Shown piece by piece: positions 1,632 to 3,765 of a stretch of 64,000 nt of DNA. The translations under genes were made by a program, and so were the position numbers. The DNA lies in assembly GCF_014280235.1 (NCBI RefSeq), contig NZ_CP047940.1, forward strand, positions 2,480,001-2,544,000, read 5' to 3'. Numbering within the stretch: position 1 is the first letter of the stretch; each line of letters opens with the position of its first letter. This DNA is from Cyanobium sp. NS01 (lineage in GTDB: Bacteria > Cyanobacteriota > Cyanobacteriia > PCC-6307 > Cyanobiaceae). A model generated the notes under the pieces. That model searched no databases, was not told the origin of the DNA, and was given only the letters and a program-made list of their open reading frames with translations.

Positions 1632-3020
1632 TCAGCCCGTGAGGAAGCGGCGCCACACCAGGGGCTCGGCCTGGCGCCAGTAGCGCGAGAAACGGCGCAG
1701 ATCGGGGGGCGACTCCAGCCGCACAAAGGGTTCCGGCTCCAGCACCTGCACGGGCAGCACCACGGCAATCCTGCGACGGATCAGCTCGAAGCGGGGATCC
1801 ACTGCAGCGGAGGTCACCACGCCATCAGCCCCATGACGAGCGGCGAAGGCAAGCACCTGCTCGGCCACATCCCCCTGCCTGAGGCTCACCGGCAGCTCCA
1901 GGGCGCATTCGTAGAGGAAGCCCAGCCGTTGGAGGCTGAGGCCAGAGGCCGCGATCAGGGAGGTGTCGAACACGAACAGCGCCGGCGCCTCGGGCCAGGC
2001 GCGCAGGGCAGGGTTGGCAGGCCCCAGTGCCTCACCGTGCACCCACACCAGCGGGCGGCCGAGCAGTGGGCCTGATCTCGTAGGCGGAGCGGGAGCCGCG
2101 AGTCGCTGCACCGGTGCTGGGAGGCTCTGATCCAGGCCCACCGGCGAGGGGGCGAACAGCCGTTGCTGCAGGGTTTCATAGCTGGCCTCGAAAGGACAGC
2201 CGGCCCCAGCCAGCAGGCAGCCGCGACAGTGGCGGTCTCCCGCAAAGCGTTCCAGGTTGGCGCGGTTGAAGATGTAGGGCTTCTGGCTGAAGCTGCTCGC
2301 CACCCACTGCCAACTGAAGTTGTTGCTGGCCGGATCTCCATCCAGCAGGTGCTGCAGAAACCAGCGGGCGCCCGCCTGCCACTGCACCTGGCGCCAGTGC
2401 ACCACATAGCTGGCGAGCCACATCCGAGCGTGATTGTGAAGCCAGCCGCGGCCCAGCAGCTCCCCAGCGAAGGCATCCATGCAGGCCAGACCGGTGCGGC
2501 CCGTCGCGATGTCAGCGGGAAGCGCGTCGGCATAGCGACCGGGGGGATGACCCGTCTTGAGGGGCTCCTGGTCGTTCCAGATGGCATCGCCTCTCTGCTT
2601 CCAGAGCCGCTGCCAATAGTCGCGCCAGCCAAGCTCATTGATCAACTTGCCGGCAAGTTGCCGGCCCTCAGCCCGCTGTCCGCTGCGTCCGTAGCCCCGC
2701 TCCTCCAGCCAGCGGAACACCGCGTCGCGTACCTCAGCCAGACTGAGCACCCCATGGCGGATGTAGGGCGAGAGGCCGCTCACGGCGCCGTCGATGTGGT
2801 TGCGGCTGCAGCCATAGGCGATCGGATCCAGCTGGGCGAGCTGGGCCAGGGCAGCCACGCCGCCGCCGCGGATCGGGCTCAACCCACCCCAGGCCGAGGG
2901 GAACAGTTCGGTGATGGTCTGCTCCAAATCCTTCCGATCCAGGAAGGTGCTGGGCAGATCAGCCGCAGCATTGGCGGGAGGCATCGGGAGGCAACAGGGT
3001 CCGTCGAGCGGCTCGCCCAA
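1632..3020 (-). CDS. Photolyase/cryptochrome-like FAD protein with inverted domain order
   Basis: A 462-residue protein. Residues of about 50-300 match the FAD-binding helical domain of DNA photolyases and cryptochromes: SRNHIDGAVSGLSPYIRHGVLS, a LINELGWRDYWQRLW helix, and the conserved pair GDPASNNFSWQWVAS and FNRANLERF. In ordinary photolyases an alpha/beta antenna domain comes first. Here a segment resembling that domain follows the FAD domain (about 320-462: PLVWVHGEALGPANPALRAW, LFVFDTSLI, RLGFLYECAL, LRQGDVAEQVLAFAARHGAD). This reads as a circular permutation. Whether it repairs pyrimidine dimers, binds an antenna chromophore or acts in light sensing cannot be told. It lies 34 bases downstream of the phosphopantetheinyl transferase gene on the same strand. 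Confidence 0.8.
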   Translation of the reverse strand: MGEPLDGPCCLPMPPANAAADLPSTFLDRKDLEQTITELFPSAWGGLSPIRGGGVAALAQLAQLDPIAYGCSRNHIDGAVSGLSPYIRHGVLSLAEVRDAVFRWLEERGYGRSGQRAEGRQLAGKLINELGWRDYWQRLWKQRGDAIWNDQEPLKTGHPPGRYADALPADIATGRTGLACMDAFAGELLGRGWLHNHARMWLASYVVHWRQVQWQAGARWFLQHLLDGDPASNNFSWQWVASSFSQKPYIFNRANLERFAGDRHCRGCLLAGAGCPFEASYETLQQRLFAPSPVGLDQSLPAPVQRLAAPAPPTRSGPLLGRPLVWVHGEALGPANPALRAWPEAPALFVFDTSLIAASGLSLQRLGFLYECALELPVSLRQGDVAEQVLAFAARHGADGVVTSAAVDPRFELIRRRIAVVLPVQVLEPEPFVRLESPPDLRRFSRYWRQAEPLVWRRFLTG

Positions 3021-3054: not shown

Positions 3055-3765
3055 TCAGCCGCTCAGCGAGGGATCTGACGCTTGGCCGGCAGCCAGGGCC
3101 CCCACATAGCCCCTGCCGAGGCAGAGCCTCCAGTGGCCCATCAGGCCGGCCGATCCGCCCACAGGTGGCGCGGCCAGGCCCCAGCCACCGGCCTTCAGTT
3201 CGGCTTCCAGATGACACCAGGCCTGCAGAAACGCCGTGGCCTGCTCTGCAACAGGCTGCTGCAGGAGGGCGTCAACCTGCTGGCTCGACAACAGGCGACG
3301 CGCAATGGGTTGCCAGTTGAGCGCCGGCCGCTCCTGCTCCACATCGACCCCCAAAGGCCGGCAGCGGTGGAGGGCCAGGAGAATCAGATCCCCGGAATGG
3401 CTGACATTGAACTGCGGCCCCCCGGGGCAATAGGGCTTGCCTCGCGGACCCAGGGCGATCGCCACGTGCTGCGGCTGCTGATCCATCCAGAGAGCCAACA
3501 TCTGGCGCAGCAGGCCACGGCCCAGCAGAAAGCGATCCTGATCCGCCTTGTGGCGAAAGCCGCCAAGGCGGCAGTTCTCCTCTGCCGTCAGCGTGCAGGC
3601 CAAACCAGCCAGCAGGGGAGCGCTGATGCCAGCCCCACGATTCACGGCCAGCAGCAGGGGCTGATCCTGTTGAGAGCAGCCATCCGCAGCAAGGAGTTCC
3701 GGCAGGGAGAGCCCCGGAAACCACGGGATGGGCTTGAGGAGTGTCAGATCAGTGGCCTGCGCCAT
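3055..3765 (-). CDS. 4'-phosphopantetheinyl transferase, Sfp/HetI type
   Basis: Transfers the phosphopantetheine arm of coenzyme A to a serine of carrier proteins (acyl carrier protein, or a polyketide/peptide synthase carrier). The 236-residue length fits the two-lobed Sfp class. Motifs in order: LGRGLLRQML (about 81-90), LGPRGKPY (105-112), NVSHSGD (120-126), the metal-binding GVDVE (139-143) and WCHLEAELKAGG (183-194), where Glu and Lys are the expected catalytic residues. No other PPTase gene is in this window, so it may be the general enzyme activating fatty-acid synthesis in this organism. That is inference. Confidence 0.9.
   Translation of the reverse strand: MAQATDLTLLKPIPWFPGLSLPELLAADGCSQQDQPLLLAVNRGAGISAPLLAGLACTLTAEENCRLGGFRHKADQDRFLLGRGLLRQMLALWMDQQPQHVAIALGPRGKPYCPGGPQFNVSHSGDLILLALHRCRPLGVDVEQERPALNWQPIARRLLSSQQVDALLQQPVAEQATAFLQAWCHLEAELKAGGWGLAAPPVGGSAGLMGHWRLCLGRGYVGALAAGQASDPSLSG

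Follow-up and report, generated by a model that had tools for sequence, protein, structure and literature searches.

A fused photolyase of Cyanobium sp. NS01 with its FAD domain first, and relatives that encode the two halves as separate genes

The gene at positions 1632-3020 of the window (the whole stretch of 64,000 nucleotides of Cyanobium sp. NS01 that was analysed) encodes a protein in which a photolyase FAD domain comes first and a photolyase antenna-type alpha/beta domain comes last, and the other fused members gathered here likewise have a domain order opposite to that of the textbook. The reading favored here, with a probability of about three in four, is that of a fused two-part DNA photolyase of the Phr6 type that depends on FAD and probably carries an Fe-S cluster, with cyclobutane dimers (CPD) a likelier substrate than (6-4) products. 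The reversed architecture is already known, the window gene belonging to the type described by Haney et al. (mBio 2022, PMC9426592): in Cyanobium NS01 and PCC 7001, Phr6 is a single open reading frame in which the FAD domain takes the leading place, and it closely resembles a merger of the adjacent genes phr4 and phr5, which are present in every marine Synechococcus examined there. What is added to the published account is a pattern in which the two genes are retained in lock-step, a test of their relative reading frames, and a likely link to the short photolyase-like (SPL) proteins. The SPL proteins of this branch are probably the catalytic half of photolyases built from two subunits, with an alpha/beta (antenna) gene that overlaps, adjoins or lies far from the FAD gene and is kept in lock-step with it; the fusion in the window would then either have arisen as one among several, each independent, or be left over from an ancient fused gene that came apart many times.

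The features of the gene, in window coordinates, are as follows.

1632-3020, minus strand: whole open reading frame of the fused reverse-order photolyase (Phr6 type), 462 amino acids, with TTG at 3020
2151-2888, minus strand: FAD domain, residues ~45-290, delimited by Pfam, PDB matches, the range of the VIA alignment (to ~293) and the residue map
2196-2483, minus strand: span of the four cysteines C180, C265, C268 and C275, probable 4Fe-4S ligands, from their numbering, their conservation and the Phr4 pattern in the available part of PMC9426592
2061-2150, minus strand: linker rich in proline and alanine, residues ~291-320, with block mean pLDDT values of 67, 58 and 72
1635-2057, minus strand: alpha/beta (antenna-type) domain, residues 322-462, with five strands and a conserved RFSRYW helix at its end

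Residue 13 is encoded by an ATG (window 2984), which offers an alternative start and may be the true one rather than the TTG, since the model has pLDDT values below 50 at residues 1-4 and 9-17. The photolyase region is kept at 61-73% identity in 12 of the 13 genomes of the genus, and an open reading frame with the reversed order is thus beyond chance. In two of these genomes the region is divided between two frames, the alpha/beta part being separate (loci L012 and L015 in G005, L011 and L014 in G007), so that split and fused states coexist within one genus. On the same strand, an open reading frame at window 3055-3765 (minus strand) ends 35 nt upstream of the photolyase start; by eye it looks like a 4'-phosphopantetheinyl transferase, and it may share an operon with the photolyase. 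A second photolyase, of normal order, is matched in all 13 genomes of the genus, in several of them on the same contig and a few kb off; here it is a 521-aa open frame (G000:C1:2478183-2478812, plus strand) about 1.2-1.8 kb ahead of window base 1.

For the N-terminal part, the sole Pfam match of the protein is FAD_binding_7 (PF03441; residues 127-252, E 9.9e-23), and NCBIfam photolyase models cover residues 44-253. The best relatives by sequence in the PDB are class I CPD photolyases, whose chain positions 197-410 align with residues 42-255, and therefore no counterpart of their pre-FAD region lies ahead of the FAD domain in the window protein. Residues E283, W286, N349, M353 and W392 of the S. 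elongatus-type PhrA, which we take to serve at the lesion site, correspond to E129, W132, N196, M200 and W239. Among the 97 rows of the residue count, N196, W132 and W239 are invariant, E129 is kept in 95 and M200 in 90 (the remaining seven have Leu), and C180, C265, C268 and C275 are present in all 97; the pattern suggests that these cysteines are ligands of a 4Fe-4S cluster. The rows behind these counts and the tree described below form a thinned set, in which only locus numbers divisible by three were retained among the split rows of L034-L089, and only even ones among the rows that lack a neighbour. At the flavin-binding positions listed in the legend of Fig. 1 of PMC9426592, as far as available, 10 of 13 residues are identical in the window protein, while T240, W280 and A385 are replaced by V, L and S. 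The PF04244 domain of PhrB-type proteins is absent from the window protein in a Pfam search at E 1 and occurs in a separate gene of the same genome, whose product reads NHHIERLM at the lesion site, with His in the place of Asn (by eye).

For the C-terminal part, the last 141 residues alone reach E 0.13 against the Pfam family DNA_photolyase (PF00875), at 12.6 bits for a cut-off of 26.6. In an alignment of this segment with 31 members, 25 match PF00875 (best E 6.3e-5), and the 31-member profile retrieves cryptochromes and photolyases from the PDB (8p4x at E 1e-4, 1owl at E 0.0033). A profile search of the last ~140 residues had been suggested by the original prediction as a check; aligned by hhalign with the N-terminal domains of 20 classical photolyases, the 31-member profile gave 98.0% (P 1.9e-12) over 121 columns in order, and with 52 alpha/beta rows the result was 97.2% (P 3.1e-11, 91 columns). 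The controls (reversed profile, FabI, carbonic anhydrase and HisB) gave at most 0.1%.

The predicted structures point in the same direction. In the full-length model (pLDDT 91.5, pTM 0.89, with a loose linker at ~291-320), VIA matches of the FAD part include both (6-4) and CPD photolyases, with 7ykn at Z 17.3 (262 residues aligned, rmsd 5.2), 5kcm at Z 17.1 (258, 4.4) and 1iqr at Z 15.1 (238, 6.0). Because searches with the full model align mostly the FAD part, so that a missing alpha/beta domain there says nothing about that domain, the C-terminal part was given a model and a search of its own. Its 141 residues are predicted to form an alpha/beta domain of five strands (pLDDT 93.2), for which Foldseek places photolyases on top (1owm, E 5.9e-5) and VIA returns CryB (3zxs, Z 13.0; 138 aligned, rmsd 3.8), PhrB (5kcm, Z 12.5; 109, 2.3; chain 2-132) and the E. 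coli photolyase (1dnp, Z 11.9; 137, 3.6; chain 2-165). Judged by profile and predicted fold, the second domain is a photolyase antenna-type domain, the homologue of the classical N-terminal antenna domain; it is the sequence profile that carries this assignment, the margin in fold being modest.

The original prediction had placed an FAD domain at residues of about 50-300 and an antenna-like segment at 320-462, in that order. The domains were found at ~45-290 and 322-461, and their order is borne out by the sequence profile, by the fold that the C-terminal segment adopts when modelled in isolation and by conservation; a C-terminus that lacks a Rossmann-like fold or belongs to an unrelated domain was not what emerged. 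The accompanying term, circular permutation, was right in that the order is reversed, but whole domains have changed places and neither is permuted inside. It fits the product and not necessarily its history, because many relatives encode the domains as two genes.

The distribution of the two halves was followed in two samples. The alpha/beta domain occurs in 143 of 400 genomes of the family. Among 386 genomes sampled from the cyanobacterial phylum, 84 have a match to the alpha/beta profile (E 0.01) and 82 a match to the FAD profile (E 1e-50). Both halves are present in 81 genomes, which are related to each other and do not represent 81 independent events, the FAD half alone in one, and the alpha/beta half alone in two, where one match lies at a contig end and the other gene is in pieces. 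One genome, G560, whose match (E 6.2e-5) lies in a 554-aa frame and probably belongs to a classical photolyase, was dropped from the 84 to leave 83 and was restored as alpha/beta-only in the Fisher table; the co-occurrence count omits second matches in G008, G073, G486, G650, G692 and G727. An alpha/beta gene in two pieces lies at G727:C1:3526679-3527066, where the FAD partner is absent at E 1e-50, and second, partial alpha/beta matches lie at G650:C1:293235-293582 and G486:C42:18313-18417. The FAD half is followed by the alpha/beta half on one strand and within 3 kb in 59 of the 81 genomes, fused genes counted in, and in the other 22 the halves are not neighbours, lying at least 25 kb apart on the same contig in 12 and on different contigs in 10. 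That such unlinked genes are retained together speaks for one function shared by both halves. Of 139 distinct FAD rows in the loci gathered here, 91 have a close alpha/beta neighbour, 26 are fused and 22 are without a close alpha/beta domain; these totals are biased upward, as is the count of 61 of 80 loci with an alpha/beta domain, since the 80 loci were ranked by similarity to the fused query, whereas the 386 genomes were chosen otherwise. Relatives were absent from viral_contigs in two scans, with the full-length and the alpha/beta alignments, and a limited literature search found no paper that deals with unlinked pairs of the two genes or with their occurrence in other phyla.

The SPL class reportedly goes back to Xu et al. 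in 2021. In the accessible parts of the literature, SPL proteins are described as having no alpha/beta domain, the S. elongatus representative being SephrC (PMC9649867, PMC9178010), and are read as antenna-less, possibly ancestral photolyases. In genome G435, PhrA aligns with 1owl without gaps over 484 residues and with few differences; only one PF03441 gene exists there besides PhrA, it is of the window FAD type, and a 144-aa alpha/beta gene (L181) begins 3 nt after it. By elimination we infer this FAD gene to be the orthologue of SephrC, in which case the domain would be missing from the SPL polypeptide and not from the genome. A transposon screen of S. elongatus (PNAS 2022, PMC9659335) names, in the part available, a UV fitness effect for class I phr and for no other photolyase, which is neither for nor against this reading. 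If it is true, antenna-less short photolyases may be half-enzymes and not the ancestors of the family. In many bacteria, an enzyme that is usually pictured as a single chain opening with the alpha/beta domain is encoded by separate genes for its two halves. The split halves offer a natural system for the role of the alpha/beta domain in repair, by omission of one subunit.

Beyond the cyanobacteria, the order of FAD and then alpha/beta recurs in Chloroflexi (Chloroflexota), Acidobacteria (Acidobacteriota) and other records. The fused form was identified in two planctomycetes (L114, L117), one acidobacterium (L116) and one Rhodospirillales record (L111); on Deinococcus plasmids three records are fused and another (L173) holds a pair with a 4-nt overlap, the second gene of which is annotated merely as hypothetical. 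In a quick tree of 108 rows, in which many forks are weak, the fused and non-fused states require at least seven changes, of either direction. In Chloroflexi and Acidobacteria loci, weak additional matches to the FAD profile (18-39 bits) lie near the pair at L106 2731-3384, L120 2421-3008, L122 3970-4587 and L138 1592-2200, with further ones at L147 3460-3915, L150 6757-7131 and L163 6628-7185; they are perhaps clustered additional photolyase-family genes. The C-termini of six FAD-first alphaproteobacterial proteins (from Ruegeria, two Asticcacaulis, Novosphingobium, Peteryoungia and Niveispirillum) reach 13.4% by hhalign against the 52 alpha/beta rows, and homology is not claimed; they would be Z-domains, from the group named in the available text of PMC9426592. 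A Persicobacter plasmid (L190, open reading frame from 1336) encodes a FAD-first Bacteroidota protein whose C-terminus ends in FFAFWKK; despite a likeness by eye it reaches 0.4% against the alpha/beta domain, and homology is likewise not claimed.

It is very improbable that the alpha/beta domain at the C-terminus is of the general nucleotide-binding kind seen in universal stress proteins and not the photolyase antenna domain. Such proteins do come near in fold, ranking seventh in Foldseek and reaching Z 10.8 in VIA with 1mjh, the best entry other than a photolyase or cryptochrome, which we take to be of that type; the margin is modest (Z 13.0 vs 10.8) and counts against the photolyase reading, and 2 of the 31 members of the C-terminal alignment match the Pfam Usp model (best E 0.039). 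Against this stand the profile match to the photolyase N-domain over 121 columns, the 25 members that match PF00875 and the fact that the alpha/beta domain is almost always accompanied by a photolyase FAD domain. A further alternative concerns the split form, for which Haney et al. left undecided, in the part available, whether phr4 and phr5 give a heterodimer or, through a programmed +1 frameshift, one protein that only appears to be encoded by two genes. The constant phr4-phr5 spacing in their strains (PMC9426592) and the existence of fused relatives would fit a frameshift, but such a frameshift is not general, because all three relative frames occur among the 91 neighbouring pairs (offset 0 in 23, +1 in 11 and +2 in 57). 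The inferred alpha/beta start, with ATG in 83 of the 91, varies from -47 to +410 nt relative to the FAD stop, a 4-nt overlap being commonest (22 pairs), where starts and distances follow a rule (the ATG closest to the domain start if at most 8 codons away, otherwise GTG or TTG) of which the frames are independent. The 45 Cyanobiaceae-type pairs show offsets of 0, +1 and +2 in 9, 4 and 32 cases and distances of -7 to +26. Frames, distances and the unlinked genes of 22 genomes together rule out a +1 frameshift as the general source of the two-gene form, and phr4 and phr5 as a single frameshifted protein are scarcely credible.

With regard to substrate, it is possible but unlikely that the window protein is a (6-4) photolyase, as the accessible part of PMC9426592 predicts from the four Fe-S cysteines listed for Phr4. 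The cysteines are those of Fe-S (6-4) photolyases, and 7ykn, which leads the VIA matches to the FAD part, is a (6-4) photolyase. A contribution to UV survival, which also fits the favored photolyase reading, has been published for phr4 of Synechococcus RS9916, a relative of the window gene: its disruption lowered UV-C survival 20-30 fold without measurable change in UV-B survival (PMC9426592). In E. coli, phr4/phr5 protected from UV-C, in light not significantly more than in the dark, and not from UV-B (PMC9426592), a result that counts against the favored reading, as does the published (6-4) prediction. Against (6-4) repair, N196 is Asn in all 97 rows and M200 is Met or, in seven, Leu, whereas the PF04244 protein has His by eye, and an Fe-S cluster does not settle the substrate, as PMC9649867 refers to SPL enzymes as enzymes of CPD repair. 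A cyclobutane dimer is a likelier lesion than a (6-4) product, because the lesion-site E, W, N, M and W are kept and His stands at the Asn position in the PF04244 protein of the same genome. It is quite unlikely that repair of CPD is mainly directed at single-stranded DNA, as in the other FAD-first photolyases, those of the Z-domain type. Phr4 and Phr6 are reported to have Phr7 as their nearest relative (PMC9426592), the lesion-site residues are common to both types, and Z-type rows stand beside window-type rows and away from classical ones in the 108-row tree, although long branches make this placement unsure; the Z-type rows are mostly without the cysteines, and homology of their C-terminal domain is not claimed (hhalign 13.4%).

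The repair mechanism of photolyases is established for the family. For a fused photolyase acting on CPD, the lesion site, FAD and probably a 4Fe-4S cluster would all lie in the N-terminal domain, and the C-terminal alpha/beta domain should pack on that domain from the opposite chain end, while in split relatives a small separate alpha/beta protein would join the FAD subunit in trans. FAD would absorb light, perhaps aided by a pigment in the alpha/beta part, and reduced FAD would donate an electron to the UV lesion, upon which the dimer would split.

Compared with known systems, class I CPD photolyases (1owl, 1dnp) have the closest solved FAD domain by sequence, the same lesion-site E, W, N, M and W and the same alpha/beta domain; the window protein differs in its order, with no alpha/beta domain before the FAD domain, in a shorter alpha/beta domain and in four added cysteines. 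The Fe-S (6-4) photolyases PhrB and CryB (5kcm, 3zxs) are the best fold matches of both domains and share the four cysteines, whereas the window protein has the opposite order and Asn for His at the lesion site, judged by eye against the PF04244 protein of its own genome. Single-strand photolyases with a C-terminal Z-domain, such as Phr7 (Emmerich et al. 2020, as cited in PMC9426592), have FAD first like the window protein and the lesion-site residues in common (in all six rows taken as Z-type), but the cysteines are mostly missing and homology of the C-terminal domains is not claimed. The SPL protein SephrC resembles the window protein in an FAD domain that no alpha/beta domain precedes, and would belong to the same gene family; SPL proteins are described, in the texts available, without an alpha/beta domain, whereas in the window family the domain is fused behind FAD or encoded by a neighbouring or remote gene, so that a polypeptide free of it would be found in the split relatives and not in the window ORF. 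From Phr6 and Phr4 with Phr5, fused or split by strain, no difference was found for the window protein, which shares with them the cyanobacterial lineage, the FAD domain on the N-terminal side, the photolyase alpha/beta domain C-terminal in one ORF (in split relatives the next gene), the four Fe-S cluster cysteines and most flavin-binding residues; the spacing and frame of split genes vary more in the wider set gathered here than the accessible part of PMC9426592 reports.
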